Origin: Lactarius indigo | Lineage: Eukaryota > Basidiomycota > Agaricomycetes > Russulales > Russulaceae | Assembly: GCA_025766275.1 (NCBI GenBank) | Contig: JAFKAC010000025.1 | Location: 62,001-126,000 of the forward strand | Direction: 5' to 3' | DNA: 64,000 nucleotides | Shown here: one piece after another, positions 30,985-55,809 of the stretch | Layout: every line of letters begins with the position of its first letter | Position numbering within the stretch: position 1 is the stretch's first letter | Made by a program: the position numbers and the translations under genes | The notes under the pieces: generated by a model | Told to the model about the DNA's origin: nothing | Database searches by the model: none | The model's input: only the letters and a program-made list of their open reading frames with translations

Positions 30985-33900
30985 TCAACCCTGATGTTCA
31001 GTGTTGCGCTGAAGATAGATATCAGGCGACGCATATTGCAGGTGTCCATAGAACAACGCCCGGTGTGGGTCAGCGTAGACCATGTACGATGGCTCGGGCA
31101 TGCCGATGCGGGAGACGCGCACAACGACGTATATGTCCGTACCGATTTCAGCACGCTCAGAAAACCTAGATGCCTGCCATGCACCAAATTATACATGTCA
31201 TCGTCGTCGATTATGGATCAGACCGGACGCACCGTGATCATCTGAACCCGACTCATATGGAACGGCTCGTTCTCCTCTCCGCGCGTCGACTTGACCTCAA
31301 TGTGGTATCGCGGCCAGCGGCTGTGCCACGCGGCAGCCTTCTCCGGACCGAACCACTCACGTGTGAGCTGTCCGCGCGTATCTTCGTACGTAAAGTCTGC
31401 GTGGGCCATTCCGTGGAACGGCGCAAAGCCAGGGATAAAGTGCCGCAACTCGCTCGTCCAATTGTTTGGTCCAAAATCGTCCAGCATACGGATGAGCATT
31501 TTGTAAGCCTGTTATACTATATGTATCAGTGCTTTATTTCGATTGGTTGGAGAGAAACGGAATGCACATAATGCTCGCCCATGACTCCCACCAGGTCGGT
31601 GTCGCCCGTCGCCGTCGGCGGCACATTGAAAATCCCAAATGGAGGCCAGACGGGGTTTCCGAGCGTGCCGGGCGCCATCTGGTTCCCATTGGCGTGCGCC
31701 TGGGCCTGCGCAGCGAGCCTAGCCATGTCACGGGCAGCGCCCATAACAGGACCCGGAAGAGCGAGCGGCGCGGCGGGCTGCAAAAACGCCTGTCCTTGCG
31801 CAAGTCCATTCGCATTTAATGGCGACCGCGACCGCTGCAAGAACTGCGAATGTTCCGCGACGCCAACCGAGCTCTGCACCGAGCGGCGGCGCTGCCTCCC
31901 GTTTCCATTCGCCGGCGAAGCAGGGTATTGGGAGGACTGAGTGTCGGTACGTCGGCGCGGGGTCTTCGGTCCGCGCGTGCCGAGAGGGGGAAACTGCCCA
32001 GCGTCCTGCACAGAGAGTGCCGAAAGGGAAGGGGAAGGCGGGAGTGGCTGGGGAGGCGATGCAGGGCTCGGGGGCCGCTCGTTCTGGACAATGACTGCAG
32101 CCGGCGCAGGTACCACGGGTTCATTGGGGTGTAACATCGCTTGTAGCCACGAGCCGTCGACGTCGTCATCGACCGGGATCTCATCTATGCCGTGGAACGC
32201 GAAAAGGTCGCGGATGACCTCGGCATTTTGAGTAATGCATGTGAATAGTGCCATCCCATCAACCTCGAGCAAGCGAGAAAGCTCCTTGCAGATGTGCATG
32301 TCGATGGATTTGCCCGACATGCTCGTGCGACTGAAGAACGTGGTGAACTTGTCATCCGTCTCGAAGGAGACGACTTCTGATGTCGGCTCATTATACGAGC
32401 CGAGTGACAGAGTGGTAGTAATCGACTCTACCCCAATAACGTTGATATTGCGTAGCTTGGGAAGGAAGTCCTTGGCTTGCTGTGGGAGGCTCATCTTGTT
32501 GGTGTGGTACACCAGCCTGACAGGCACGAGGCGGATCGAATATCCCGTCGAATTACAATCAGCGATGTCCTCTGGTTCAACGAATAATGTATACCTTGCA
32601 ATGTACTCAACCCTGCTCGAATACAGGTCCGTAGCTTTGAGATCAATCACCCGTTTCCCAAGCGGCGTTGACCGTTTAGACACGTGCTCCTCGAGGTAGC
32701 GCATCTTGTCTTTAAGAATAGACGACTCGAGCAGCGGGCGGATACGTGTGGTGTCCGATTCAGAGAGCGCGAACAGCGGGACACGCGAACGGAACACGTC
32801 CGCATACTTGCCTGATTTGTCTGGGATGTAAAATTCGTCAACTGCGCAGAGGGCGACGCCTACTGAGGGCACAGATGCAGGGAATACGGAGATCTGCGCA
32901 AGGTCCGCGAAGGATGGGGGTATCTTCGGCATAGTTTGCAGGATCTTGCTGATGTCTGCGAGGATGTCTGTGATATGCTCCTTTACCCCCAGCGGTACCG
33001 GCCCGCGCTGGTGCTGCCTCGCGATCGCACGCAGCTCCTCGATGAGAGCGTACGGCGGGGCACTGGTGATGCCGAGCTTCCGGAAGAAGAAGTTGCTCAA
33101 GTTTGGATATGAGTGGCTGATGACTGCCCTGGTCGTCATTGACGGCGGGCCATCCCAGTAGACATCCGTCTTGCGCAGCCAGACGCGCTCTGACTGGCCG
33201 TTGACAGCCAGTATGATCGGGTCCTTTGTGAACGCGTCTCTGCCCCGTGATATGAACGATCATCGTTCCTAGACAGTCACAACAACCAACACTCACCTGA
33301 TCGACACCTCGTCCTCATCAAATCGCGCATCGAGCTGCTTATAGATCTCCGCGGCGGCCTCGCTATCTTTATCGCCTTCCCCTTGCATGTGTACTAGTTT
33401 GTTCAAATAAAACTGCGCGTTCAAGCGCGTCGTAACACCGAGTTGCTCTAGAAAGTCCCACCCGCGATCTTCGGGGTTGTCCACGGGAACGAAGGGTAGT
33501 TCAAGTGCCTGGTCAGCCCGCGCGAGCGCCCCGCGGCGCAGGTACAGTTTGTCGAGCCGGCGCCCCGCAATTGGTATTTCACCGAGCGCCCGTGCACCAT
33601 CTGCTTTGAGACGCGTAGAGAGGCGGGGCCACCAGGCGCGCAATGAGGCGACGAGTTCATAGCCTACGAGCTGCGGAGCGTGATTGGTGAGGTCTGGGAT
33701 AAGGCAACCGTTTAGCACGCGCGGGACCACGTTGACGCCGACGCAGTCCCGCAGCCAAGCAATCCACTCGCTCCGCGTGTTCGTTCTCACACCGTCTTCG
33801 TCAGTTTCATTATCAGGGGCCTCTTCAGGGTACGCGGAGAGATAGTTGGGGTGGAGGAAGCGCGCTGTGAGAGGGGAAAGGGCATCGCGTAGCGCAAGTG

Positions 33901-35961
33901 CGCCGTCTTCTCCAGGCAGATCCAAATACAACTCGTCTGCCTGTGCGCCTTCGCCACGCTCATCTGCGAGCCGAAGTCGTGCAGCAGGTGGCATATTCGA
34001 CACCCCACGATACTCAAAGAAGAAGCGGGCGTGGTCGACCCGGTTCACGACGGATCGTGGGCCTCCTGTCATCAGAATCTTCTTCGCAATCGTGGCCGGG
34101 TTTGGGAGTGTGACGCCGAGACGGACGAAGAGGTTGTACCGCGCGGAAAACATGGGGATTCCGGGCGCGACACTCTGCAGGCCGAGGTCATCTGGAATGT
34201 TCACTCCTGTGGGGGGGAACATAAACCTGGAAGCAAGTGAGGCAACCGCCCAACTGCCGTTGTGAAGTGGGAGGATACGCAGAAGTGTCACCTCGGAGCG
34301 CACGCCTCTTCCAATTGGATGTGGTAAACGCAGGATGCAGGTCGCTACTGACTCGTGCCATGCAGCACTCTGTGCACCGAACAAGTTGGCTTGGTCCATT
34401 TTGATGAGGCCTGTGAGAAAGTCGTCATCCGTCATTTCGCGCACACCGAGGCGGCGAAGAATGAGCCCATCCCGGCCATAAGCATCGTAATCCGACGAAA
34501 GGTAGTACATGCCACGTGGGAGGTGTGCCTCGGGAATGAGTGGCGCATCGAAGTCGTCACGGAAGGACATGGGAAGAACAATAAGTTGAGACGCGCGAAA
34601 ATATGTACCATTCGAAGAACGGAGAATTGGCCGATGTTGGAGCTCGGTCATCAATTTATGCTCGACGTAACAGAAGAAGCTGTCGGAGATAGACTCGGGC
34701 AAGTAACGGAACCAGACATTGCGGAGAGTGGGGTGGTCCGCGAAGCGGTTGACAGCGAGGAGGAAGGTATCGATAATGCTTCGAAGAAGAGCACGGTTCC
34801 ACTCTTTATCTGCCAGAACGTCCTCCCGGCTAGCCGAGGTGATGAAATCCGCCTGTACGATGAACTGTTCCTCGAAACATTATATGTGCACCCAAACCGA
34901 CAACATAAGAGGACTTACGTTGAACCCGTAGCGTCGCAAGGGCAAGAACGCATGCACCTCCTGCATCTCGATCACAGGCTCTCCTGTTTCTGTGATCGGA
35001 AATGCCAACATTATCTCACTCCGCTCGACGCCCTCTCTCCCAGGTTCCTCGGCAGGTGTCTGTGCGAGGTGCCTCACCAGCACGTACTTTTCTACCTTGC
35101 GGTCCCCGTTATCTATGCGTTCCAGGGAAACGAGGTCGTCGCCGGGACCATCCTCGCGCCGCATCTGAAGACCGCCGCGCCGAGGGGCACCTGGGATGGT
35201 GACGTTAAGGACGCGGAGCTGGCGCAGGAAGAGGAGCAATGTGGGACGCAGGCCGCTCAGTTGGGCGCTAAGGTCTGTGCCGTTCTCGGAAGGCGCAAGG
35301 CGCAAGTGAAACGTGGTCCACCCGGGTCTTGGAGGGTACTCGGAGCCCCAGACTGGCGTGATCATCCCCAGCTGCGCTGTGCGATCGAAGTAGAAGGAGT
35401 ACGGGCCGGAGGATATGTGCACCTCGTCTGCAACGGTGAAGACGGACTTGAAACCGATACCCTTCTCGCCTGCACGTGCATATATGCGCGTTACACGAGG
35501 CATAGAGTGTGAGAGAACAGAACGGGACGCACCGATGAATCCGCGTGTCGCATTTTCACGGGTCTTGGTGCTCTGACCAATATCGCATATAGCCTTGACA
35601 TTGTCGGCTAAAAAGCCGCGTTCATTACACTCAAACACGACGAGGCTGTCCTCGATCCGAAGGTTAAGCGAGGGGGTGACGCCATCTGCGTATGTATTGT
35701 CGTCTGCGTTTTGTATAAACTCGAGTAAAAAGTGGGTTTTTTTGTTGTACAAGTCGCTAGAAAGTCTGTAGAGAGGGTGTGGGGAGGGGCGGTGGGAGTA
35801 GGGATATGGGGGAGGGAAAGGGCTTACCGCTCAAGAGCACGCTCGAGTTTGCCGCGCAGCTCACGAACAGCAGGGGAAGGAGTTGATTGGCCATCATCAA
35901 AGCCGTGTTGTTCACGAATGATGCGGATAAGTTCCAAGGCGGCATCGGCGGAAGTGGACAT
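30985..35961 (-). CDS. NO VEIN-like protein: Hsp90-type ATPase domain plus C-terminal DUF3883 (7 exons)
   Basis: A 1542-residue protein. Exons: 35961-35828, 35765-35533, 35469-34919, 34870-33297, 33239-31568, 31508-31233 and 31173-30985, with consistent phases. The N-terminal third has the GHKL/sacsin-type ATPase motifs EFIQNADDN (N box) and GEKGIGFKSVF (split by intron 35470-35532). A long unassigned middle and a low-complexity serine/proline region (about 31800-32130) follow. The C-terminus has the DUF3883 signature of NO VEIN proteins: GEHYAYKML, then YHIEVKSTRGEENEPFHMS (PD-(D/E)XK-like E-x-K), then IYVVVRVSRIG. In plants the family affects vascular development; fungal roles are unknown. 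A large-scaffold ATPase with a nuclease-like end is inferred. The antisense frames over it are shadows. Confidence 0.85.
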
Positions 35962-36268: not shown

Positions 36269-38764
36269 ATGTCTAACTTTGTCGATGGCTCCGGACCTAT
36301 TTTTTCCATGTATTTGGAAATGGCAACGGAAGAAGACAAGAAGATGGCTGAGAGCTGGAAAGCGGACGCCGACGGGATCCTTATATTCGTGGGTCTCCAT
36401 CTTCTAATTTTGCGCTTCGCAACGACTCAATAGCAATAGACTGGTCTTTTCTCTGCTTCTGTTGCGTCGTTGATCTCAGTGTCGATTCAGGACATTCGAC
36501 CAAACCCACAGGACACCTCCAATTTCTACCTCGCAAATATCTATCAGACCGTTGCCGACCCAAATCGAACCAATATTTCGAGTTCCCTTCCTGCTTCCCC
36601 ACCTCCTTTCACTCCGCCAAACTATGCAGTCTGGGTGAACGCACTTTGGTTCTTGAGCTTGGTGATCAGTATAACCTGTGCTTTACTTGCGACGTTGCTA
36701 CAGCAATGGGCACGAAGATACCTCAAGGTCACTCAGCCACATTACAGCACACACAAGCGAGCACGGATCCGCGCATTCTTCTTTGAAGGTGTCGGGAAGT
36801 TCCTCCTTCCATGGGCAGTTGAAGCATTGCCCACGCTGCTACATGTTTCCCTATTCTTGTTCTTTGCCGGTCTGACTGTCTTCCTATGCAACATCGATCT
36901 CACAATTTTCAAGTTGATCCTGTCATGGGTCAGCGCTTGCATGGCTCTGTACGGATGCGTCACCTTCATGCCCATCTTTTGTCACGACAGCCCATACCAC
37001 ACCCCACTCTCATTACCTGCGTGGCACATTGTCACTTGGATGACATTGGTCATTTTCCGGGTCATTTTGTGGTTCACCGAGTTCAAGTATTTCAGTTTTG
37101 AAGTCTGGAGTCGCTTTCTTCACTTGAAGAGAAGTTATCACGAATTCTTTGTGCAGGGCATGCAGAAAACCGCCGAGGAGACCGCACTGAACTCACCATC
37201 TGAGATCGACACTCGTGCCTTCATGTGGACATTCGACAGCCTGGATGAAGACCACGAACTGGAGCGCTTCTATTCCAGCTTACCCGGCTTCCGCAACTCA
37301 AAAGTGGTCAACGATCCTTTACCCAGTCTCACTAAAGAGCAGAAGTCGAAACTTTCAATAGGTTTGATCGAGTTGTTGAACCTGACATTCTCGTCCGATC
37401 TGTTGCCCGAGGCTGTCAAAAACCGACGCGCCATCATCTGCGCTAGGGCCATTGGTTCAACAGAAATCCCCTACGCGTATTGGCACATCGTTAATACGAT
37501 ATTGTCCGAAGACCGATATACGGGACTGCAAACCACTGAATTTGGCGATATTATGTGGGACTGGGAAGATAGTGGAGACCAAGGCACTACTTTGGTTGTG
37601 CAAGCCGTACGTATGGGTATCGTCGCAAGAGCCCAAGAGCGCGATGACTCTTGGTTTTCTCACGCCTCCAAGGAACTACGCCTCCTAGAATCTGAACTCC
37701 GAGACTACGCCACAAACGGTGACACCCTGTCACTCGTCATCTTGATTCACATTATTCGCCGGCAACTCGACTATATCCAGAAATGGCCCTGGCCGGAGGA
37801 TAGTACTGCGTTGTCGGAGGTTCTAAAAGCAACTTCTGAATTCAATGTACGAGACACGCCGCTTGATCTGCAGCTCCAGTTCTGTGCACTCTGGAATCAA
37901 GCCGTTCTTAAAGCACAGAATGACGATGACATGTCGATCGCGAGGTATATCCTGAGACCCATTCGCGGCATTTACATTGCTCTACACCATAATACCAGTT
38001 CTGCTCCAACGCAGTTCTCCCCCTCCACCAACGATTATGATCTGATTCTGCTGGCGCCATCCTCATACCCATTGTGCAACGCCACGGGGCCAACACCTTA
38101 TATCCACGAGAATTCTACCTCCACAACCTCTTCTCGCTCCGTCCTGCGCGATAGCGCTCCACTGTCCCCTGTTTCCATTGTCAGCAGCACCGATGTGCCT
38201 TCCTCGTCCGTACCCGCTCCAATTCATGTAGGCGAATCACCGCTCGACGACAATATCTCCGTCCTAGGACCCTTGCAACCTGCTTCTCAGACAACCGCCA
38301 AGACCCGCTGCATTCCCGCCATTTCACCTGATTCAGTCACCAATGTCACTGCAAGCACCCTGGAACTGTCGGCGTCCTCCCATCCTTCTACATCTAAAGC
38401 CTCTACCTCCTCCCCACCTGATGCTGTTACACACTGCCGGACTCCGAGTCCTCCGGATGTCCTAGATATTTTATCGTCACCTCTGGTTGTTGAAAATGCG
38501 CTCCGTGCAGATCCGCCGTTATCTTCAAACTCTGCCGCGCGGCCCGGATCTGACCACGCGCCTTCTTCGCCAGAATCTCATTCATCGGTACTAGCTCCCG
38601 CTCCTCCATGCGCTCCTCCTTCACGGCAGATCTCTGCACCTGATCTAGGTGTTGCTGCCCAGGGAGGACGTGGCGCGTATGTTAGTTCGCGCGAGAACGA
38701 GGACGCTCCTGGTTCTACTCCAGCGATCCGTCAAAACGCTTCACGGACCTCTCTCGATGCCTAA
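36269..38764 (+). CDS. DUF6535 multi-pass membrane protein (2 exons)
   Basis: An 814-residue protein of the mushroom-specific DUF6535 family. Exons: 36269-36388 and 36440-38764; intron 51 bp (GTGGGT...CAATAG), phase 0. The N-terminus holds the family signature FSMYLEMATEEDKKMAESWK, and the join restores IFTGLFSASVASLISVSIQD. Transmembrane segments are visible at YAVWVNALWFLSLVISITCA, at LLHVSLFLFFAGLTVFLC plus the following hydrophobic stretch, and near WHIVTWMTLVIFRVILW. A cytosolic helical part and a long serine/proline-rich C-terminal tail (after about residue 510) follow. Function is unknown in the family. A further upstream exon cannot be excluded. Its tail is duplicated at about 60975-61806. 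Confidence 0.85.
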
Positions 38765-40677: not shown

Positions 40678-41723
40678 GTGTTCTCTGCGTTACAAAGTAA
40701 GGTGGAGAGAAGGTAGATAGGGACGAGAGGTAAGAGGAAAGGAGATGAGAGCCAAGGAAGCTGGATTCCGGTCAATATAAGAGACAGGATGTGTGAAGCA
40801 TCACGGCGATCGAGCCAGTGGCTCGATCGCCAAGCCCGACGGCGACGCGCGGCGACGTGCCGTGTACCATCGGGAAACGTTGCGCCGTCGGACGACACAG
40901 CGAGTCATGATCATCCTCACTTTTATTCGCGATCAATCTCTATACTTTGACGAGAAGGAATGTTATTCCCTGTTTCGGGCCGACTTATGTTTGAAGGGTT
41001 CCTTCTTTTTTCCATGCGGGGGCATTACACTTTACGCCGGGCGGCGGCGGCCCGAGGGAGGGTGCATACATTGGGGGTGCCTTGGGCCCCGCATTCTTTA
41101 CACCTTTTTTTTTGTATCCATATATCTCCCGGCTGATAGGCCATAGGCCCAGACTAGACGCAGCGTGAACAAGCTACATTAAGGGGGGGGTTGTAACACG
41201 AAGGTGCTCAGGTTACAAAACTACTAGGGATGATGGATTTATAGACCATATCGAAGCCCGCCATTGCAGGACAGATATAGCAATACAGGAGTCGTTGAGT
41301 CGCAAAACAGTTGACCGTGGCGTCAGACACCGAGAGCTTCTGTTCCCCTCCTGGGTGAGGCCCCCTTCCCCCAAACATCGGGAGCCCATTCTTTACACTT
41401 TTCTCTTTACCCTACGACTCGGAGTGCCCTGCCCTACTTACTCTCATAACATATGGATTCCCAGGGCCGAAGTAGTCGTCGAAGCTAGCACGGAGGGGAT
41501 GGTAGATTAATCGGCTACTTGCCCTGGATGCCCAGTCGGCCGCATGTAACATCAGCGCGAGGGCTGATGCCACTCAAAGCGGGAACTGAGCTAGGAGTTT
41601 GGTATATTCCTCTAAGGCACAGTGGAAGATCGCGAGTGCGGCCCGAGGCAGGGAGAACAAGAGGTGTGGATATGATAAGATAAGAAAGATGGAAAAAAGA
41701 GACTGAGCGACCGTCGCTTGTGG
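40678..41723. other. Intergenic region between SDR1 and the RecQ/DUF6589 element
   Basis: SDR1 promoter side. Up to about 41546 it is similar to the region upstream of SDR2 (57166-57760). From 41547 to 41723 it is unique flank of the mobile element. No gene seen. Confidence 0.5.
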
Positions 41724-41730
41724 TACTGGT
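41724..41730. repeat. Target-site duplication, left copy (TACTGGT)
   Basis: TACTGGT immediately before the left terminal inverted repeat. The same seven bases in direct orientation follow the right terminal repeat (55440-55446). Confidence 0.85.
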
Positions 41731-41987
41731 CCAGACTCCTTCCCGTTTCGATGCTCCGCGTAAGAGACTATTACTCACTGTGCACGTGTTTCTTCCCACA
41801 GCCACTTTCCTTTTATATCCTAACTTTGCGTCTCGTTACGCTACGCACCGACTGGGGACACTTGTGTCGGCTTCTCCCGGGGCGTGACGCATGGTGCTCT
41901 TTCGTGTCGATCCTTATGTTTTTTTAATGTAAACGCGTGTGTCCGTATTCGGAAAATATAATAAATTTATTGCTTGCTTGACATTGG
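41731..41987 (+). repeat. Left terminal inverted repeat of RecQ/DUF6589 element
   Basis: The first 36 bp are identical to the complement of the right end. A diverged middle of about 65 bp follows, then 156 bp (41832-41987) with one visible mismatch. It includes CCTTATGTTTTTTTAATG and the start of an open frame (MSVFGKYNKF) shared by both ends, which is probably 5' leader rather than protein. Confidence 0.85.
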
Positions 41988-42040
41988 GATCAGCGCGTGC
42001 ATATGTGGTGTATACATCTTCGTTGCTGTGCCCTATTCCG

Positions 42041-45000
42041 ATGGACAACCGAACAAACCCTGAACTCGCTACTGTGCTCCGGTGTCTCTCCGACAATGGT
42101 TACTCAGTATTTTCTTTGTTCACCAGCGTTCTCTCATGGTGCGACCCGGATGATCTTATGGTTCAATCAGCTCGGGAAGACTTGGAGCTCGATGCTGTCA
42201 ACGTATGCGCTCGCCTTCTCAGTCACACCCCAACATCTGTGTCTGTGTCTGCATGGGCTCTCCAGGTCACACAGTCAACGCTACGGTCAGAGGTAGAAGA
42301 AATGACAAAAAAAAAGAACGGACTTCACTTCAGCGCGAGCACTGCGACAGCGGAACAAATTGAGCTCACTTTCATGCCTCAGCTTGCGGGGAAGTTGCGT
42401 CTACTGGCCCCGTCTCTATGGGGAGTCGTTTTCACTCTGCTTGGAGCACTCGATGAACGCCGCTCGTCTGTCATGGTCGACCCAAGCAACCTCAACCTGT
42501 CTGAGCTCTTTCAAATATCTGAGCAACTCCTGGGAGACCTTGGTGAAGACGACGCGGCCGACGAAAACATAGATGCTGTTGGAGATGACAGTGACTCAGG
42601 TATCCAACAAGAGGACGAGAGGAGGCCTCGGAAGAGATCGCGCAAGGACGTATCGGCACGGAACACAGCTATTCGAGTCATCGTAAGTTACTACTATACC
42701 TCAGTTAATTAATACACGTCGTAGATGATATACTCATATGAACTACTTGAAATACTAGAAATCAGTTGTGTGCATCAGTATCATCCTACAGAGCGCGAAC
42801 GAAAATTGTAATCACTTACAAGGGATTATTGGGATGTTCGTCCACTCTGCCAATGTACCTCAACGTGTCATAGAGGTACTTGCACACGCTGGGCTGTCAA
42901 TTAGTATCAAATCCATCCAACGGGCTGTGAAATCAATGTCAAATGACAGCGCGCGGAAAATCAGACAAAGTCTGCGCACACTCAAAGTGGCTATGGCATA
43001 CGACAATTTTGATATCAACTTCAAGACCTCGGAACCGACAATTGCTCATCATTCGTCTTTCGTGAGCGCTACATCTGCTACGGCAATACCACTTATTGGC
43101 GTGGAAAATCTTGATGCGTTGTGGTGTTCTGCGGCCCTATGGAATGTGGACCCCCGCAACCCTTCGCCGTCAGCTTCACCCGTATCCTTTGACGAATTTG
43201 ACTTGTTAAAGTTCCATCTGATGGGAACTTATGACCGCCGTATACCTGAGAAGGAGCTCACCCCGCGGCGCGAGGCATTTGCCTGGCATGTGCGCGAAAT
43301 ACTGATCAATCATGGTCAGTATTTCGGGCATTTCTTAAAGCAGCTTGGGGCTCCCGAATCCGTCCTTAAGATACCACTTTCGAAAACCGAGCAAATACCT
43401 ATGAAGTCGATGAAAATAAAGCAATCATCGGTGGATGGAAACGTCGAGGTTATGGAGAGCTTACTTCGACAGGGTGGCCTGGGCGATCCGACAGAACCTG
43501 GCTTCAACACACATGGAAATGTCGACATCTCCGAATTTGTGCTGTTGATTCACGGAGACCTTCTAACAAAAGAACGTCTTGACACCATAAGGGATTCGCG
43601 GCGGATTGAGGACACTCCTAAAAATCGGTTTCAGTATGTCGTTTTCTTACCTGGACTGTTCCACTACAAGATGGCATGTGTCGACGCACTATGGAGGACA
43701 TACCTTCAATGTAAGGAAGGGCGCGAAGACATCAACAGCAGTTTTCAGCATGTTGGAATTTTACGACCACGGGAGACCAGTATACTGGTGACAAAGCCCG
43801 GGTTCCGACGAATGCATGATGTGGTTCATCATGAGCTTCGCGCTGCCATCCTCGAGTGCTGGCGGGCAGAGGCGTCTTCCTCCGGCTCAGCAATGACAAA
43901 CCTGAAGGAATTCGCGAACTCAAAACCCGAATGGGACCTGGTAGTCAAGATGTCAAGGGATATCGTCCGAAAGTATGTCGCGACGACGGAAGGCATATCC
44001 GAGTCACGCGCAAAACCGGAAGGCGACAGAGACCAGCAGTACGAGAACCAGGCTCTCCGCAACCGGGATTACCTTCTATATATTGACCTCTGTAATGCGA
44101 TAAACAATGGCGACGTTGGACGCATGGAGGCCTCCTTCATTCCGTGGATCTATACATTCTCTAGCACAGGAAAACATAAATATGCTTCTCAATTGGCGAG
44201 GTTTGTGAGGAACTTACACGATGTATACCCTGCAGATTTGAGGTAAGACCTGGTCATATTGGGTCAGCGTATGTGACGCTCAGTTAGCAAATGCAGTCAT
44301 ATCGTCCGGATGAACATCCTGTGCAACCCCACAGGGAAACCGAATGCGTTCCGACCCATGGACTGGTTGGTAGAACGTAATAACCTATACACAAAGGTCA
44401 GTTAAATCACTTTGGAGATACTATACCGTTGGTGTAACGCCGTCACGACGTTAGCTCGACTTGAGCTCTACAGAGGCGGTAACAACTTAGCGAATACTTC
44501 TGAAGACACGGAGGTCCAGGCGTAACGAGTTGTCTTGAAGACTTGGAGGTCCAAGCATAGACAATGGTGAACACACGAAGGCGCACGACTTTGAAAGAGG
44601 CGATCGAGACAGAGAAAGAGATAGAGGGAGAAAAACGAGAAACAAGTGACGATTCAAGAAGACCAAGATGGCGTATCTTGGTCTTCGCAAAGCACTATAA
44701 ATACAAGTCGAGCAGGCTTACAAGCGCTGCTATGAGTCACTGTAGGTAGCGTCCAACGTATCACAGAAACATCGCAAACCCTAATACTACTAGTACCTGT
44801 ACTAGTGGTGTCGGTCATCAGTCAGCTATCGTACCGTATCTCCTATCGCACCGCCTATCACCGTAAGTAAGTCCGCAACTAATCTACCTTACCGCCGTAG
44901 TTGCAACCGGTACAGTAAGGGTCGAAACGCTCGAATCGTAACATCACCTCCCTTTCTAGCGTGAGACCCCTGGCTCACCGAAAGTCACGTGCCGGCCAAT

Positions 45001-48000
45001 CGCGTTGTTCGTCGGCGATGCGTTCCAATGCGGTGGCGCGCTCCAAGCGATAAATCGCGTCGCGCCGATCGTCCTGCGTGCATTCGATCATAGCGCGGAG
45101 CTGGCTCACCCGCGCCCTGAGTTGATCCAGCTCATAGCTGGCCGCGCGGAAACGCGTAACCTCCGCGGTAAGCGACTCATCGTTGATACGATTGAGCGCG
45201 CGGTCGGTGATCTTGTCGGCTTCGAAGACGACGAGGTCTTCGTGCGGGTACGTGGGGCGGAGCGCCGCGGATACGTGGGGTTCTGCGTAGAGGGGCTTAC
45301 CATAGACGTGTGGTGAACCCGGGATGACTCCTAAGATGAGGGGGTCTGCCCCTCCGATAATCTGGACGTGCGACGCGTCCCTCTCTACTCTGTCTGGCCC
45401 GGTGATGGGGTATCGAATGTGATGGGGTCGTCGGTTCGCCTGGAACCCTTCAGGCGCAATGACGTGCACGGGGTCCTCGGCGGTGGTGAACGGACGGTGA
45501 TCGGCGGCACCAGGCACGCGCACACGTCCTCGATACATGGGGGACCCGTCGGAGTAGACGAGCCAGGGCGTGATGAGGGAATTATCAGGGTCGCGTTTCG
45601 TTCGAAGGAAGGGGTGTCTCGCCGGGTAATAATCTTCGTCGTCATGGCCAGCCTCAGCTGCCGCCATCGCTGCCGTCGCTCGCGCATCTCCCTCAGTCGG
45701 GCCGCTACCGAGTCCAGCTGCTCCTTCTGCCACGCTGCTGCCACTCTCTTCCAACCCTCCAACTCGTACTCCATCATCGCTTGAACACTGGTCGTTGCTC
45801 GGGAAAACTCCGTGAACGCCAATGAGGTCGTCGCTTGGGGGGATAGCGGCGATGGGTTCGCGCTCACCGCGATCGTTTCGGAAGACGTGGACGACGGCTC
45901 GGTCGTCGTCAGGGGTGGTCATTGGGTCTGGGAATCTGGTGACGACGTTGATCCATTCTTGCGCGGTGATGGGCCCCTCTGCTGGTGTAAGAGGCGTCCA
46001 TGGCGTGAGCTGAGTGTTGGGAACTTCGGTGTCGCTGTTCTCTGCAAGGAGGGCGCGGGCGTCTTCTGCAAGGGAGTCGAGGAGCTGCGCCTGTGTGACA
46101 TGTCGTAATGGAGAGGTGGGCATAAGAGTAGTGGTGGAGCGAAGGAAGAGGGGATGACTGTCCTCCATTCGAGCGACTCCCACTTTATCTCTTTTACCGT
46201 GGGTCTGTGCTTCCTGATATAGGCGAAGTGCTTCCGGTGCAAAGACGTCGTCCTTGTTGACCCACTGATTCTCCGAGTCGGGGTACCCCTTCCATTTGAT
46301 CAAGTATTGAAGGCGCCTTCCTCTGCCAAAGTGCCGAGTGTCTAGAATGGCCTCGACTTCGTATTCCTCTTCTCCATCAATCAGTTCGGGCGGTGGTCGT
46401 GTGAAGTTTTCCCCGTGTAAGGAAGTTTGTCTGTATGGTGTGAGAAGATCGATGTGAAACACTGGATGGATGCTCCACTGTGTGGGAAGTTCCAATCGAT
46501 AGTTGTACGGGGACATCACCTGTACCACCCGAAAGGGTCCGTGGCGCCGCGCTGCTAATTTCGCCGTAGGCTGATTGGTCCGAAGATGTTTGCCTTCGAG
46601 CCACACAAGATCGTTGATGTTGAATTTGGGCGTATCTTTGTTGCGCACCCATGATTCTTGCGCCTTCTTTATAAGGCGTTGGGCGTTGTCTCTAGCTTCT
46701 TTTAGCTGTGTCAGTCGCGCGGTCGCAAGGGGAATGGGAGATGGCTTATCCGTCCAGTCCGCTTGCGGGTTATACCCCATCAGAAGTTGGAACGGCGATT
46801 CTTTAGTGTGTTCATGTGGCCAGTTGTTGTGCGCAAACTCGGCAATTGGCAGATAGGCTTCCCAGTTGTCTTGCCGCTCGTTTACCCAAAATCGTAGGTA
46901 CTGTTCCAGCCATTGATTAGTTCGCTCGGACTGTCCATCAGTACGTGGGTGGTATGCGGTCGATATGTTCTGCTGAATCCCCAGAATGCGGCATACTTCT
47001 CTGGTGAACTTGGATGTGAAGCGTGGATCGCGATCGCTTATTATCTTGCGCGGCAACCCGAAGCGTTTGAACACGTGGGCGATATACAGAGTCGCCGTTT
47101 CTTCTGCGGTGATTTCTTCTCGACATGGGATAAAAACTGAGGCCTTACTGCAATCGTGGTCCGTGACTGTCAGTATACTGTCATATCCCTTGGAGACAGG
47201 GAGTTTGGTGATGAAGTCCACGGCTACCGTATGGAATGGCGTGGCTTCTAGTATTGGCGTGATGGGATGCAGCGCGGCTCGGATGGGCCTCGTGTTGACT
47301 TTATTCCTTTGGCATTCCGCGCAACCTTGCACGTATTCATATACGTCTTTTCGAAGTCGCGGCCACCAGTAGTGTCTCTCCAAGATGCGTTGAGTTTTCA
47401 CAATTCCCGGGTGGCCGTGTATCGGCAGGTCGTGATGATCGTGTATTAGTATTCGTTGAGTCGATGCTGGTCCGGTGATTACGAACCTGCCGTCCTTATA
47501 CCATTCTCCTTGTATTTTCTTAAGGTGGTAAGGGTCGATCCATATCTTAATCACCTTTTCGTCTTGTTGGTGACGTGGTTGTAGTAGATTCGGGTTGGCG
47601 ATGAAGGTGCGCGCGGTGTTAAGGGTTCATACAAAGATTTCAGGGGGTAGGACCACTACTTCGCTATTGTCCCCGACGCCTTGGTCGTAATCCGGTCGTC
47701 TTGACAGTGCATCTGCCCGTCCGTTGTTCTTTCCCTTAATGTGATGAATTTCGAAGTCGTATTCAGAAAGTTCGAGTACTTCCCTGGCGACTCGTCTGCT
47801 GATCTTTTGTGGTGACTTCCAGTACTGTAGGTTTAGGTGGTCCGAATAGATCTTGATCTTGTGAGGGGCACCTGCGAGAAGCGGTCGCCAGTTTCGTAGG
47901 GCTTTGACTATCGCGAGCAGCTCTAGGTCGTAGATGTCATAGTTTCTTTCGGCTTCGGAAAGCGTCGCCGAGTAGTAACCTATGGGGTGTCGCTTGCCGT

Positions 48001-51000
48001 CAGATTTCTTTTGTAGTAATACGGCTCCCACCACATAGCCCGAAGCGTCTACTTCCAATTCGAATGGGTCTTGAAGGACGGGGTGTGCTAACACCGGTTC
48101 CTCTGTCACAAGTCGTTTTAGGGTGTTAAACGCCTTTTCCTCTTCCTCCGTCCATCGCCATTCTTCGTCTTTTCGTGTTAGTTTGGTGAGTGGTTTGGCG
48201 TGAGTTGCGAAACCGCGGATAAAGAGTCTGTAAAAGTTACAGAAGCCGAGGAAAGAACGGACGTCCTTGACTTTTGTTGGCGTTGGCCAGTCCTTGATGC
48301 CCTGAACTTTTACAGGGTCCATTCGGGTCACCCCCCTTTCAAGGATTACCCCCAGGTAATCCATCCGCGGTTGATGGAACAGGCACTTTTCGAGTTTGAA
48401 ATAGAGATCGTGCTCCTCCGCTACACGCAAAACATCGCAAACGGCGTCTACATGGGCCGTTAGGTCGTGATCAAAGTGAGTAGCAATGCCAATGTCGTCC
48501 ATATAGACGCGTATGGTAGTGCCCAAACGTTCGTGCTTTGCGATGGTGTCGCGATAGATATGGTTCATCATGGCTTGAAACGTGGCGGGGGAGTTGGTGA
48601 GCCCGAAGAACATGACTGTTGGTTCGAAGAGGCCGAATTTAGTTTTGAACGCTGCCTTCTCCTGGTCGCCGTCGCGGATGCGTATGTTATTGTAACCCCA
48701 TCGGATGTCGAGTTTAGTGTAGATGTGGGCATTACTGAGGTCTAGGATGAGGTCTTGTATTAATGGCAGCGGGTACTGGTTTCGAATAGTATGGGAGTTG
48801 ATGACCCGGTAATCCTGTACTGGGCGTAGTTTTCCGTCCTTCTTTTTAATGAAAAAGAAGGATGATGCGTACAGGGAGATAGAGGGACGTAAATATCCCT
48901 GCTTTAGTTTCTCCTCGAGGAATTCTTTGAGTTCGCTCTCCTCTTTCTGGGTCATAGGGTAAATTTTGCAGTCGATGGCGGCCGGCGCAGATGGTTTGAA
49001 ATCTATTGCGTGATCCCACGGCCTTGCCGGGGGGAAGCGGTGCGAGGCTTGCTCGTTGAAAAGTTTGGCAAACGTCGCGTATTCCTGGGGGAGCACTGCT
49101 GCCACTTGTTGTTGTTTTGCTTGTATAGCCAACTCCGTCGAGGTGGTGGCTCTAGCGAATGTTTCTTCGTCCAATTCCCGTACAATGTCTTCCTTTTCGG
49201 TCACAATGAGGGCTCGGACGGTCGTTGTTGATAGTAGGGCTTCGGTAGTCGCCAATATTACTGGCTGCATGTCGGGGTGCATGGTGGCGGCGGCCCAGCT
49301 AATTGTAGGTTCGAATGCGCTTAGCCATGGATACCCTAGCACCATGTCTTCGCTTCCAAGGTCGGTGACCAGGAAGGTCATTTGTTTTATCTGTCCCCGT
49401 GTTTTCACTTCTAGGTTAACATAATGAGTGATTAACCCAGCTTTGTTTTCCGTGTTGTCTATATTCCATATTTTACGAGGCGTATTCAGCAGTTGTGTTT
49501 GGATACCAGCTCTTCTTGCCAAGCTGGGTCGGATGAAGTTGTCGGTTGCGCCAGAATCGACTAGCGCATTTGTTTCAGTCGTTTGGTAATTCGTTCGGAC
49601 AGTTACTGGAATTCGCATAGATCGGTAGCGCGTTGTCACAATTACAGAATTACATTGAAGAGCCCTCACCCAGACTGACGGGTTTAGGCGTCCCGAAAAC
49701 CCTCTTTCCCCCACAGATCTTGAAGTATAAGATCTTTTACTTCATCCGTACTGTTGGCCACTTGTGTGAGCCATTCTTTGGCTTGTTCTCCCGCTGTCTT
49801 CATGCTTGCCGCATTTATTTGGGGTGCGGGCGTTACGCTTGGTGCCGGCGACATATATCCCGGCAGTGATGGTGCGTACTGTGATGGTGCGTATTGTGAG
49901 ACGGGTCCTTGAGGGTATCCCGTAGTTTCGGTCATGCGGCTGCTGGATGAGGCAGCCTGCCACTGCGGCTGCGCACACGGGTACGGGCAATTTCGTGAGA
50001 GGTGGCTGGGAGCGTGACAGTTATAACAGAGGACATTCCTTAGGTCCCTTCGAGATCCTCCTCTTCCTCGTCCTCTAGCCCCTGGTCCTCCTCTTGGGGG
50101 GAATGGTGGTGCAGGCCAATCACGGTGCGGTAGTTTATTGAAATCGATGTCTTCGGACCCCGCCAGCCTTACTCTTGCGCGATCAGCCGAGGTGTCCATC
50201 GCCCAGGGGTTAGTTTGTGGCAGGTTCTGCGGGAGCGTCCACCCCGCATTACCGCCCTGTTTCTTCGGTTGTGTTGTCGTATTTTTGTGTTCGTTGAGTC
50301 GTGCCTTGAGGTGGATGTAGTTTTTCTGCCGCTTGAGGACGGCCCTTTTCCAGTCGTCGAACGTGACGGGGTCGTCGAACTGGAACGCGTTTTTGAACAG
50401 TTCCTTGGGCAGACCCGACGTAAACAGGTCGATGGTTTGGGGTTCGTTGAGGCTATAGTGAGCTTTCCGCGCGAGCTGTTCGAAGTCATTGACGTACTTG
50501 TCAATGTCCTCCCCCATCATTTTGTACCCCTTTCGCAGTATGGCTTGAGCTTGCTCCCTTTCTAGCGTGTTTTCAAATCTTTGGCTGAACCCGTCGGCCA
50601 CGGCGTCCCATAGAGCGCGAGTGTAGGGACTTATTCCCCGTTGTATCTGTCTGTTGAGCCAGTTCAGGAAGGATAGGACCCATTCGCTGACCGCTCCGCC
50701 TTTGATGTAAGAGAGAAACAGAAGGCATCTTCTGTAGTCGTTGCGCATAATAGGGGCATCCAAATTCATGCCCCAATAAACATGCCACTGCGTTAGGAAT
50801 TGGTCTACTTTGAGTCTGTCGCCGTCGAAAATGGAAGGTGGCTCGCCGGTTAGTTTTTCGTTATGAGGTCCCCCTCCTCCGGCATCTCCACCTCCTCCTC
50901 CGCCGCCACCACCTCCTCCGCCTCCTGGCGGTCCTCTAGGTGGCATCCTTGGTGGCTCGGTTCTTTGTAAGTCAAACGGGATACCTCCTCCTGGTGGCGG

Positions 51001-52839
51001 TGGTGGGTCTTCGCTCGGCCCTCCTATTCCCGGTGGAAGGTCTAGCGCAGGTTGTCGTCCGGATGGGGGGTCTCCTCGATCCGACCCTATCGCTCGGAAG
51101 ATGGCTGCGTCGTCAGCAGTCATTCGCACGCCGGTTTCGGGGTTAATGGGCATGAGGATTTCTCGTGCTTCTTCTCGTATTGCGTGCGCTTCTTCGATTG
51201 CGACCTCTTCCATAGCTCTTGTTATGGTTGCCATAATAGCTGGTGATCGGATGTGAATTGGCTCTGGTTCTGTAATGTGTGCGGACTCAGCTCGTTCGAT
51301 GAGGAGATCTTGTATTGCTCCTCCGCTAGTTTCTGTTTGGTTTGGCTCTCGTCCTTCGCTTTCGTCTTGGCTTTGTTCTTCTTCTTCTGATACCACTTCT
51401 CCAGTAGAGTGTTCTCGTACCTGCCCGTCGATGGGGCCCCAATCTGCTCGGCTGTTGAGTTCTCGAGCGTCGATGTCGCACTGGTATCTAGGTCCTGCTG
51501 GTCGTATGACGTCCCACTGGGAATCTATGGGGTTCCACGCCACTTCCGTCCAACACAAGTGGTCGAAATTGAACTCAACTGGTCGGAACCTACTAGGTCC
51601 GTTGAACTCGACAAAGTAACCGGTTTCTTCTTGCCTCTCCCTCCAACTAGCAGCTTGTAGAAAGCGCGTGGGGACGTTGCGTTCTCCTCTTCTTGGGAGT
51701 GAATATGGACGGAAACTCGTCCACTGATCTCTTGTTGTTACGGCCACGGTGGAATCTTGGTCTTAATGTAACGCCGTCACGACGTTAGCTCGACTTGAGC
51801 TCTACAGAGGCGGTAACAACTTAGCGAATACTTCTGAAGACACGGAGGTCCAGGCGTAACGAGTTGTCTTGAAGACTCGGAGGTCCAAGCGTAGACAATG
51901 GTGAACACACGAAGGCGCACGACTTTGAAAGAGGCGATCGAGACAGAGAAAGAGATAGAGGGAGAAAAACGAGAAACAAGTGACGATTCAAGAAGACCAA
52001 GATGGCGTATCTTGGTCTTCGCAAAGCACTATAAATACAAGTCGAGCAGGCTTACAAGCGCTGCTATGAGTCACTGTAGGTAGCGTCCAACGTATCACAG
52101 AAACATCGCAAACCCTAATACTACTAGTACCTGTACTAGTGGTGTCGGTCATCAGTCAGCTATCGTACCGTATCTCCTATCGCACCGCCTATCACCGTAA
52201 GTAAGTCCGCAACTAATCTACCTTACCGCCGTAGTTGCAACCGGTACAGTAAGGGTCGAAACGCTCGAATCGTAACAGTTGGTCATGCGGCCGGAGTCAT
52301 TGTGTCCATCGTTGTGGCCGGTGCTTGAGGCACCGGAGGTGGACTAGACGGGAAGTGACGCTGGAGGCGGCGGGCTTTGATAGGGCAGACGTCGGCGTTG
52401 TCAGACTCCGCGGCAGGTCTCAAGTGTGTGGTCGATGGAGTAGAGCCCAATGGGCTGACAGAGACGCGGTGTGCTGACACAGACCCAGGTCATTTACGCT
52501 GGAAGTGGTCCGAATAGAAACATAGACTATATCTGCAAGCAATCACCTCTGATCGAGGTATTCCGAAGCTGTCATGTTATCGTCGAGAAAGCGTTTCAAC
52601 TCACGCATCGAACACTCAAACATGCGCCACCAGACATGACCACAACAATAGAGAGGTTGCGCACCCATATGCAAACATCTGGCCTGTGCGAATTTCGTCG
52701 TGGGAGGGCCGTGGAGCGGGAGATAACGGATAATATTGCAAGGGGTCTAGACTCGGAGGTAGTACATGCTAAGAGAGTTGTGCTACCTGTTGAAGAGGAA
52801 GCACATGAGATCGAGGCCGCGGATTTAGAGGTCCACTGA
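42041..52839 (+). CDS. DUF6589 protein, last intron invaded by gypsy element (4 exons)
   Basis: An 858-residue protein. Exons: 42041-42682, 42759-44242, 44297-44396 and 52489-52839; phases 0, 2 and 0 agree. Recognised from mushroom DUF6589 proteins by the order of AYDNFDINF, the LIHGDLLTKERLDTI block, FVVFLPGLFHYKMACVDALW, NPTGKPNAFRPMDWL and GPNRNIDYI...SPLIEVFRS. Exon 4 resumes the family pattern exactly after NNLYTK, so the gypsy at 44433-52277 lies inside the intron. Conserved aspartates in YDN and GDL resemble those of RNase H-fold transposases (inference). A nuclear-localisation-like RRPRKRSRK precedes exon 2. Whether an 8-kb intron is still spliced is unknown. Confidence 0.82.
44433..44943 (-). 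repeat. 3' LTR of the gypsy element
   Basis: Begins TGTAACGCCG and ends CGTAACA in plus orientation. It is 511 bp and differs from the other LTR at 44550s-44560s positions (CTTGGAGG/CTCGGAGG and GCATAGAC/GCGTAGAC). Confidence 0.95.
44944..44957 (-). other. Polypurine tract of the gypsy element
   Basis: AGAAAGGGAGGTGA on the minus strand, directly before the 3' LTR. It is the expected plus-strand primer site. Confidence 0.75.
44975..49714 (-). CDS. pol: Pol polyprotein, interrupted by one in-frame TGA
   Basis: Polyprotein in the -1 frame relative to gag, overlapping it by at least 31 nt, so probably made by frameshifting. Domains in order are: aspartic protease (LVDSGATDNF, about residues 51-60), reverse transcriptase (YMDDIGIA), RNase H (LEVDASGYVVGAVLL), an integrase zinc finger of HHCC type (HGHPGIVKTQR, CAECQRNK), an integrase core (AVDFITKLP, SDRDPRFTSKF, TDGQSERTNQ), and a chromodomain (YLIKWKGYPDSENQWV). 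A tail of about 400 residues without known domain follows. At 47629-47627 a TGA separates RNase H (…PPEIFV) from integrase; the frame is otherwise continuous. It fits a CGA to TGA transition. A readthrough role cannot be excluded. Confidence 0.9.
49684..51747 (-). CDS. gag: Gag polyprotein
   Basis: Capsid/nucleocapsid precursor, about 687 codons. It has an acidic N-terminal part, a glycine/proline-rich stretch with a run of glycines, a retrotransposon gag core (TQWHVYWGMN...FSQRFENTLEREQAQA) and a CCHC knuckle, CYNCHAPSHLSRNC. The likely start context reads CACCGTGGCC; an ATG here would give a perfect Kozak context, so the start codon seems lost by an A-to-G change. The next in-frame ATG lies far downstream. 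It stops at 49684 within the pol overlap. Confidence 0.88.
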   Translation of the reverse strand: MAVTTRDQWTSFRPYSLPRRGERNVPTRFLQAASWRERQEETGYFVEFNGPSRFRPVEFNFDHLCWTEVAWNPIDSQWDVIRPAGPRYQCDIDARELNSRADWGPIDGQVREHSTGEVVSEEEEQSQDESEGREPNQTETSGGAIQDLLIERAESAHITEPEPIHIRSPAIMATITRAMEEVAIEEAHAIREEAREILMPINPETGVRMTADDAAIFRAIGSDRGDPPSGRQPALDLPPGIGGPSEDPPPPPGGGIPFDLQRTEPPRMPPRGPPGGGGGGGGGGGGGDAGGGGPHNEKLTGEPPSIFDGDRLKVDQFLTQWHVYWGMNLDAPIMRNDYRRCLLFLSYIKGGAVSEWVLSFLNWLNRQIQRGISPYTRALWDAVADGFSQRFENTLEREQAQAILRKGYKMMGEDIDKYVNDFEQLARKAHYSLNEPQTIDLFTSGLPKELFKNAFQFDDPVTFDDWKRAVLKRQKNYIHLKARLNEHKNTTTQPKKQGGNAGWTLPQNLPQTNPWAMDTSADRARVRLAGSEDIDFNKLPHRDWPAPPFPPRGGPGARGRGRGGSRRDLRNVLCYNCHAPSHLSRNCPYPCAQPQWQAASSSSRMTETTGYPQGPVSQYAPSQYAPSLPGYMSPAPSVTPAPQINAASMKTAGEQAKEWLTQVANSTDEVKDLILQDLWGKEGFRDA
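51754..51764 (-). promoter_or_regulatory. Candidate self-priming primer-binding site
   Basis: AAGACCAAGAT, two bases inside the 5' LTR end. It is exactly complementary to ATCTTGGTCTT in the LTR (minus strand 52003-51993), which starts 34 bp after the start of a TATTTATA box (52037-52030), that is, where the transcript should begin. This is the arrangement of Tf1/sushi elements, whose mRNA 5' end primes reverse transcription. No tRNA-type TGG site is present. Confidence 0.65.
51767..52277 (-). repeat. 5' LTR of the gypsy element
   Basis: 511 bp. It contains TATTTATA (52037-52030, minus strand) and the hairpin AAGACCAAGAT...ATCTTGGTCTT (about 51993-52020). Confidence 0.95.
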
Positions 52840-55128
52840 CCGTAAATACATTCTCATTTGGGCCTTGCACACCTCCTGTATGCGGCTTGTAATTCGGACA
52901 GATGCGATTAGAAGCTATGGGGGTAACCATGAACAACGTAGACACGAACTATTACAAAATAACGACATACCTATGTGCGTGTTGCTGCCACATGCACTAC
53001 ATCGCCTCGTGCGGGGCAGTTTGGGGTCATTTGAACTTGGTGTCGATTGGGCAACTGACAACCTCTGCACGGTGGATGGCCCGGGCAGATTCCCGGCAGG
53101 CTGCAGAGCTGGTCTAGACAAACCAGCGTTAACAGGTGGGATGTGTTTCTCGATGATATCGAGAATCTCCGCGCCCCAGCGATCGGTATACCGCCAACTG
53201 ACTTGGGCATGAATTGACGCGAGATCGGAGACCTGCTCGAAATGGGCCAACTCCACTAAGCGTTCGAGTACATCGTCGGTCATGATGAGCTGGGGTCCGA
53301 ACATATCATCATCGCCCACAGTGCTCAGGAGCTGGTTTCTCCGCCAGTCTTGCAAGGCGGTCTTGAGCCTCGTGTCTGTGCTGGTCAACTCGTACCGGCC
53401 CGCCTTGAATTTGCTCGGAGCCCGACTTTGTTTTGAGGCAGATGTTTTGGGGAGCGGTAGAATAAACGACCCGGGGTTGCAGATATCACAGCACAAACGG
53501 GAGCCCTTGACAACACATCGCAGGCAATTAGAACAGGCAATCGATGGAGACGCTGGCCGCGGGTCAAACCGAGTCCCAGTAAACAGATTCCAAACACGTA
53601 CATGGACGATTACCAAAGAACTCATTTGATATTCCACGGCGACAGACCCCTCGTGAACGTGCGTTGATATACGCATCCATGGCAGCCTCTTCGTAATTCT
53701 CGTGTTTCTCCTCTTGGACAATCAACCTGCCCGTTGTACGCGGTGCACCAGAATCAGGCTCTGGTTGATCGCGCTGGTGGCGAGGCCGCTTCCGTGAAGA
53801 TGGGCCAGCCTTCCCACTCTGCACATGCGCACTCGTTGATGTTGATGTTACATCCACTGTGTCTGGGACTCCATGCAGTTGCCTCTGCTGCGATTTCCCG
53901 GCATTCGTTGCCGCTTTCTGTTTGGTTTGCATGCGGCGGTCCATGAATTTCGGCTCGACAATATAAATCCCGGTAGCTTCAGTTGATGGATCTCTTGCTG
54001 CACGACCAAGACGCTGCCAGAGCATACAGAATGACTTTGTATGTTTCCACTGAACAACAAGCTCGATATTGCGCAGGTCAAGACCCTAACAACTGATTGG
54101 CACGACTTCAACAATTTATGGATAACGACGCACCATTCCAGCCGCATCGGTACAGAAGATCCCCCATATTTCACTTAAGCAAAGTTTCTTGATCGTTTCT
54201 GTCCGGAAGCTTGTACTCATACCAGAATGGAACCAGAGAAGCTTCCCGACAAGTTCAGAAGGCGCATGTGAACGAGCAAACAGGCAAAGTCTCTCCGTTT
54301 CTTTTCGGTCGTTACAAAAAACCATGAATGGGGGCGGTGGGGGATTCCCATCGAACCTAAGCACGCGGAGGATGTCATGGCACGAGTTTATAGGGTCCAG
54401 CATCTCCAAGGTAAGCAAGTGAATATTTGGGCGATCATTGCTGAGCCGAATCTCCCTAGTTCTCTCTGATCGCATCTGAAGAACAGACTTTATGTGGCCA
54501 AGAACACGAGACGGTAGCGTTGCAGATGCCGCGTAGAAGACAACATGTCCAGGGAGTAGCCAACGTAGCCTCCCAACTTCAGCGTACTCGGGGCGGAAAT
54601 CCCCTGACCACTGGCTGATACAGTGGGCCTCATCGAATATAATATTGTGCAGTCTGTTAACAAATTTCTTCAGCTTCCACAGTTCAAGGAACCTCTGGTC
54701 ATTAAGAACGCGCTCGAGACTTGTAATAATAACGCGGTACTTCAAGGACTCGATATCCTGTTCGCTACATTACTCAACGGATAGAGGCACTCATATAGGA
54801 CTCCCACCTCATATGTATCGTCTGACTCGGATGCAAGGTTTATTGCTGGGATTGAAACTGCTGACAGCTCTGCGACATATTTATCACCTAAGACAATTAA
54901 TGGTGTGATAACAATCGTGATCCCGTTTCTATTGAAAAGGAGCGGCATCCAGAACGTCAAGGTTTTTCCAGATCCTGTAGGTGCCAGAGTAACCAAGTCC
55001 ATTTGCTTTAGCTGAGTCAATGCGGCCTCAAGTTGCCATGTGCACGGAAAGAAGCCGAAGCGATCCTTGACAGCATCTCGCATGTCATTCAGAGAAGGAA
55101 GATCGACAGTGGAATCGAGCGAGGCCAT
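52769..55128 (-). CDS. RecQ-family DNA helicase of the inverted-repeat element (5 exons)
   Basis: A 714-residue ATP-dependent helicase. Exons: 55128-54808, 54757-54134, 54085-53614, 53552-52971 and 52914-52769; phases agree. Motifs: APTGSGKTLTF (Walker A), IFDEAHCISQWSGDFRPEY (DEAH), ASATLPSRV (motif III), FHSGMS (motif IV region), GMGLDLRNIELVVQW (motif V, formed across intron 54086-54133) and QRLGRAARD (motif VI). Behind the core are a cysteine cluster (CSNCLRC, CCDIC) and a final zinc-knuckle-like CSACGSNTHIASNRICPNY built across the last intron. The arrangement resembles the RecQ proteins found in many copies in mushroom genomes rather than the housekeeping RecQ. The last 71 nt overlap the DUF6589 3' end on the other strand. 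Confidence 0.88.
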
Positions 55129-55184
55129 TGCACAGAGAAGACGCGAAGGTGGGATTCGCGCATTCACATATTCACACATACACA

Positions 55185-55439
55185 CCAATGTCAAGCAAGC
55201 AATAAATTTATTATATTTTCCGAATACGGACACACGCGTTTACATTAAAAAAACATAAGGATCGACATGAAAGAGCACCATGCGTCACGCCCCGGGAGAA
55301 GCCGACACAAGTGTCCCCAGTCGGTGCGTAGCGTAACGAGGCGCTGAAGTTGGGATAAAAAAGGAAGTTGGGTGTGGGAAAGCACACGTGATTGATTAGG
55401 AGCCTCTTACGCGGAGCATCGAAACGGGAAGGAGTCTGG
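55185..55439 (-). repeat. Right terminal inverted repeat of RecQ/DUF6589 element
   Basis: Inverted counterpart of 41731-41987. The outer end reads GGAGTCTGG (55431-55439) on the plus strand. The RecQ ATG lies 57 bp from its inner end, so the repeat contains or borders the promoter. Confidence 0.85.
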
Positions 55440-55446
55440 TACTGGT
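55440..55446. repeat. Target-site duplication, right copy (TACTGGT)
   Basis: Direct repeat of 41724-41730, directly outside the right inverted repeat. Confidence 0.85.
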
Positions 55447-55809
55447 CTCTGAATATCTGAATTCCCGAGTCTCTGCAATGCATCTGAAACTCCTGAGCTC
55501 TGACGTGTGCGAAAGTAGAAGAGTTCGATGATCGGCGTGATCGGAGCGTGTTTGGGTAAGGTATACTTACACTGCACCGTAGTACCGGTCTTGTATCACA
55601 TACTGTCCCACAATATAAACGGTTAAAAATATACAGTAGCACATCAAGATGTAAAGCTACACGATATACAATGCTCTAAGGTGCACGAAAAAGAAAAAAG
55701 AAAACATACGGGAGGGCAACGAGTTCAGTGAACAACCATTCGTGACGGGTCAAGGTAAGGACACGTCCACGTATCATGCATGCACTTGATACATACACGA
55801 ATTTAACAA
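55447..55809. other. Intergenic region right of the element
   Basis: Flank of the element, then, from about 55580, sequence shared with 57770-57790 and 58685-58872 (ACATACTGTCCCA and the SDR 3' flank). No gene seen. Confidence 0.5.

Follow-up and report, generated by a model that had tools for sequence, protein, structure and literature searches.

A probable AcademH-type DNA transposon with a putative DUF6589 transposase and a RecQ helicase in the mushroom Lactarius indigo

We analysed a 64,000-nt stretch of the Lactarius indigo genome (hereafter, the window; part of contig C168), in which a DUF6589 gene on the forward strand and a RecQ-like helicase gene on the reverse strand converge within an element that has an inverted end at each side (41732–55438 according to the end alignment; Table 1). 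The original prediction was that a single DNA transposon carries both genes, and this was borne out by the ends that its copies share, by their target duplications and by the presence of unoccupied sites.

The window contains two inverted pairs (I1, 204 nt at 90%; I2, 47 nt at 91%). When the two ends of the element were aligned, 237 of 258 columns agreed, and the first 35 bases beyond the duplication were identical. In columns 101–258 the agreement was 155/158 (a figure obtained by subtraction), which confirms the near-identical inverted block of 156 bp that had been proposed. The true termini are CAGACT...AGTCTG, and the imperfect inverted repeats are ~257 bp long. As the same ends recur across the genome, their inverted arrangement is beyond chance. 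Directly outside both ends lies a 9-bp target duplication, GTACTGGTC; TACTGGT (41724, 55440), originally taken for a 7-bp duplication, is its centre. The base just outside CAGACT differs among the left ends of the five copies with two readable ends (C, A, C, T, and T), so it belongs to the target, and the boundary is settled. Thus, of the 36 identical terminal bases first counted, 35 stand and the 36th is a target base. As the first base of GTACTGGTC is G and its last is C, a single base per side mimics an inverted repeat.

Further copies were sought in the whole genome (90 Mb, 291 contigs) with the left end, which gave 40 scored matches out of 63 candidates, and 17 stretches around the best matches were read. 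Two readable ends were present in the window and on C112, C86, C251, and C68, five places in total. The 9-bp duplications of these copies each had a different sequence, and every copy held inward-facing DUF6589 and RecQ genes, with one gene starting at each end. The expectation that other DUF6589/RecQ pairs share common ends therefore held for the two-ended copies; a divergent pair on C212 (see below) showed no recognisable common end within the 10 kb read.

A single insertion was spread over C106 and C58, with its second end truncated, and the end on C233 had the same flank as this insertion. C35 carried two ends (278434 and 316101; L021 and L022) in the same orientation with reverse complementary 9-bp flanks, which suggests an inversion with one breakpoint within the element; the C151 end duplicates one of them, flank included. 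One end each was read on C253, C270, and C201. The C68 copy spans 81 kb (C68:479568-560990, ends L017 and L018) between matching 9-bp duplications. A cargo element of that size was considered and rejected: the DUF6589 and RecQ exons are dispersed along its length and both end stretches contain sequences resembling long terminal repeats (LTRs), and the copy is therefore read as apparently enlarged by nested insertions.

Unoccupied sites were assessed by joining the flank pairs of the five two-ended copies, searching for them in the same genome and aligning the results. Junction-exact unoccupied alleles with a single 9-bp target were detected for C86 (at C230), C112 (at C52), and C251 (at C201), with identities of 100%, 99%, and 97%, respectively, over 500-bp matches. 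The element is a real, recently mobile DNA transposon. For the C68 copy, the best unoccupied match, on C254, was 88% identical, and several paralogues lie in that region. A search of the genome at up to 3 mismatches yielded no such site for the C35 copy. A single TACTGGT had been anticipated in the empty allele of the window copy, and this was not cleanly seen: the nearest unoccupied site, on C226 (93%), reads TAACTGGT and is 18 nt longer than the joined flanks. In a comparison with seven more copies of the flanking repeat, the occupied sequence and C226 both deviated by indels at the site, so the window site speaks neither for nor against a clean single target.

The flanking repeat is a dispersed sequence of ~310 bp (about 41545-41731 and 55448-55572), matched across the junction by 15 other places in the genome at 70-93% identity. 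The C226 locus (C226:748051-748449, L051) has a short extra stretch relative to other repeat copies, which may be an indel or may have been left by an old excision.

Both genes of the window element had been proposed as intact, inward-facing models. Their orientation stood, as did the exon joints and reading frames where these were read, the RecQ frames being open over four exons. The DUF6589 gene, by contrast, is interrupted: 7.8 kb of the 13.7 kb in the element is a foreign Ty3/Gypsy retrotransposon. Gag, protease, reverse transcriptase, RNase H, integrase and chromodomain sequences were matched within it. Its LTRs are identical at 506/508 positions of the part compared, and the retrotransposon is young. 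It lies in the last DUF6589 intron, 36 bp past the splice donor as read by eye; copy L009 is free of the insert at the matching place and has one GTTGG only. Without the insert, the window element would measure ~5.9 kb, close to the 5.74 kb of the C112 copy (L011).

Table 1. Positions in the window of the transposon, its genes and the retrotransposon nested in it
Feature	Position	Strand	Remarks
Left 9-bp target site duplication	41723..41731		GTACTGGTC
Right 9-bp target site duplication	55439..55447		GTACTGGTC
Left terminal inverted repeat	41732..41987	+	Begins CAGACTCCTTCCCG; end comparison
Right terminal inverted repeat	55183..55438	-	Left sequence inverted, ~92% identical; end comparison
DUF6589 exon 1	42041..42682	+	Start and donor placed by likeness to the L011 copy and by eye
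DUF6589 exon 2	42759..44242	+	Start approximate; Asp codons 43002-43004 (YDN) and 43557-43559 (HGDLLT), both conserved
DUF6589 exon 3	44297..44396	+	DWLVERNN holds the conserved Glu (codon 44373-44375); splice sites by eye
DUF6589 exon 4, including stop codon	52489..52839	+	Downstream of the nested retrotransposon
RecQ-like helicase gene, at least 4 exons	52915..55128	-	Outer limits approximate; family assigned on the L011 protein
Nested Ty3/Gypsy retrotransposon with chromodomain	44433..52277	-	Foreign to the transposon; 5-bp GTTGG at 44428-44432 and 52278-52282

The helicase was assigned from the L011 copy, whose protein contained PF00270 and PF00271 in the Pfam scan. Among PDB sequences, its best matches were RecQ, BLM and RECQ1 entries (E 4e-32 to 1e-30), and the best NCBIfam family was TIGR00614, at a score under the cut-off of that family. 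The window gene contains Walker A (54961-54987), DEAH with the FRPEY loop (54584-54634), and motif VI (53987-54016).

We determined how often RecQ and DUF6589 occur together. The genome contained 45 RecQ matches on 19 contigs, each contig being counted as one place. At 14 of the 19 places, RecQ identity was at least 50%. The contig also carried DUF6589 close by at 11 of these, but not at the other three (C253, C131, and C224). Two pairs of contigs (C106/C58 and C35/C151) each appear to represent one insertion over two contigs. Among the five weaker places, C212 (RecQ identity 32-41%) had a convergent DUF6589 ~4 kb away and C219 had one ~35 kb away; there was none at C291, C217, or C74, where the matches are probably cellular RecQ genes. 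Many DUF6589 matches lay on contigs without a RecQ match.

The latter include a second DUF6589 subfamily with 14 near-identical left ends, several of them near contig ends. Its members are L046 (C168:756200-763200), three on C265, and others on C90, C274, C87, C234, C112 (at 146 kb), C109, C250, C53, C33, and C26. L046 has an in-frame stop in DUF6589 exon 2, and RecQ was looked for there and not found. Segmental duplication, perhaps in subtelomeric regions, looks to account for part of the copies of this subfamily.

The possible function of DUF6589 was assessed via its fold and relatives. Conserved D, D, and E residues lie in a transposase-like core that resembles RNase H, in which a helical insertion separates the Glu from the second Asp. 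Its best structural match was the hAT transposase Hermes; the Foldseek result taken alone was weak, and the comparison by VIA-align applies to the families on its list. The fold and the conserved residues strongly suggest that DUF6589 is the (putative) DDE transposase of the element. A search of PDB sequences with the DUF6589 profile returned zero matches. One search for DUF6589 (PF20231) relatives alone yielded 328 proteins at E ≤ 0.01, and the best 120 of the 328 were inspected. Among the matches listed, the closest named relatives of the C112-copy protein were from Lactarius, and a look for non-fungal relatives found every named one to be from a mushroom; we take the named ones to be Agaricomycetes, the remainder carrying no species name. 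No relatives were found in viral contigs, nor in BFVD at E ≤ 0.001.

Classification relied on published descriptions of transposons. Terminal inverted repeats are taken as a general feature of the Academ superfamily. Its AcademH lineage reportedly goes back to Kojima (2020, Mob DNA 11:15). The L. indigo element shares with AcademH terminal inverted repeats, the 9-bp duplication (5/5 copies) and a RecQ-type helicase, and the DDD/E transposase has its counterpart in the fold and conserved D, D, and E of the predicted DUF6589 transposase. The original prediction knew of no established superfamily with this gene pair and a 7-bp duplication. A fitting superfamily has been described, as far as the available portions of the following sources go: Academ carries a RecQ helicase (PMC3627910) and is listed among the DDD/E transposase superfamilies (PMC9587614), and target duplications are 9 or 10 bp in AcademH and 3 or 4 bp in AcademX, a difference linked to helicase versus nuclease (PMC10045372). 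AcademH is described from Basidiomycota, Ascomycota, and Mucoromycota, where its copy number is low, with the helicase domains DEAD and Helicase_C (PMC10799480). The likeness to AcademH thus extends to helicase, duplication length and occurrence in Basidiomycota, as compared by published descriptions. AcademX, in the same superfamily, differs in its short duplications. It carries a nuclease; in Pfam scans of the element no nuclease family rose above its cut-off, and one weak REase_AHJR-like match (E 0.011, sub-cut-off) lay in the DUF6589 frame. We conclude, with a probability of roughly 0.84, that the element is an AcademH-type DNA transposon with a putative DUF6589 DDE transposase and a RecQ helicase.

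Other transposon types were compared in the same way. Helitrons lack inverted repeats and target duplications, whereas the element has both, and its Pfam scans contained no Rep domain, no hAT domain and no TET/JBP domain. We know of no RecQ partner for hAT. In published descriptions, Helitrons encode an HUH protein and a helicase, and Zisupton elements have 8-bp duplications, with KDZ transposase genes associated with TET/JBP genes; the latter, fungal DNA transposons too, are unlike the element in both respects. hAT duplications are as a rule 8 bp, with variants of 5 to 7 (PMC12730594, in part), versus 9 bp here.

An alternative reading is that DUF6589 defines a separate, unnamed DDE superfamily that is widespread in mushrooms and gained its RecQ helicase and 9-bp duplication independently of Academ. 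Retention of the RecQ partner across deep divergence would fit the C212 locus, where the same convergent pair lies ~4 kb apart, with no ends recognised. The comparison with Academ, made through published descriptions, leaves room for this reading, as does the fact that the named DUF6589 relatives among the matches listed all come from Agaricomycetes. However, a DDE transposase with a RecQ-type helicase and 9-bp duplications in a basidiomycete is AcademH as the available descriptions have it, and the restriction to mushrooms holds among the matches listed, so that animal DUF6589 proteins may still exist. We consider a separate superfamily unlikely.

It is very improbable that DUF6589 is cargo or a regulator, with a transposase acting from elsewhere. 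A shared fold alone proves no function, and the transposase role is a prediction; yet RecQ is the only other gene recognised in compact copies, and DUF6589 itself has D, D, and E in a transposase-like fold.

Membership of KolobokH, a fungal Kolobok lineage, can practically be dismissed. RecQ does occur in this fungal DDE transposon, and the complementary strand encodes RecQ in a red-alga Kolobok (PMC9587614, in part). However, Kolobok duplications are 4 bp (TTAA) according to the same source, compared to 9 bp, never TTAA, in 5/5 copies here, and the KolobokH helicase lies downstream of the transposase domain, whereas in the window element RecQ has a gene to itself, convergent and on the other strand. 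A chance pairing of two multicopy genes in segmental duplications, without any transposon, could appeal to the duplicated blocks of the second DUF6589 subfamily (left flank common to 7/14) but is hardly conceivable given that flanks and 9-bp duplications differ among all five copies and that three unoccupied alleles are junction-exact.

With an AcademH-type transposon as the preferred reading, transposition could proceed as follows. The DUF6589 protein would bind the inverted repeats, cut the element ends and attach these to the target, whose strands would be cut with a 9-bp stagger; the duplication would then result from host repair of the gaps. Probably the part of the RecQ protein is to unwind DNA, either where the donor is broken or at the gapped joint. 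The Gypsy element entered an intron of the window copy at a later time.

The type of transposon has been described before, and the main new point is probably the reading of DUF6589 as the AcademH DDE transposase. Pfam assigns no function to the PF20231 family, for which a likely role is now proposed. Our literature search found no paper that names DUF6589 or links PF20231 to Academ, the single listed paper containing PF20231 being about nanophotonics; Repbase lay outside its scope, and such a link may exist in print. If DUF6589 is a DDE transposase, and probably the AcademH one, it would be a cleaner marker than the helicase, and many of the multicopy DUF6589 and RecQ genes annotated in mushrooms would belong to transposons. 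In a survey of domains derived from transposable elements in 1237 fungal genomes, most helicase domains were removed in curation, their origins often being ambiguous (PMC10799480, in part). With unoccupied alleles in the same genome, the element is suited to studying the role of a transposon-borne RecQ.

Elsewhere in the window, a 774-aa frame (36440-38761, forward strand) contains a DUF6535 domain (PF20153, E 1.2e-42). Long frames are also present on the reverse strand at 31529-35830, of which 34883-35830 has a weak sacsin-domain match under the curated cut-off.
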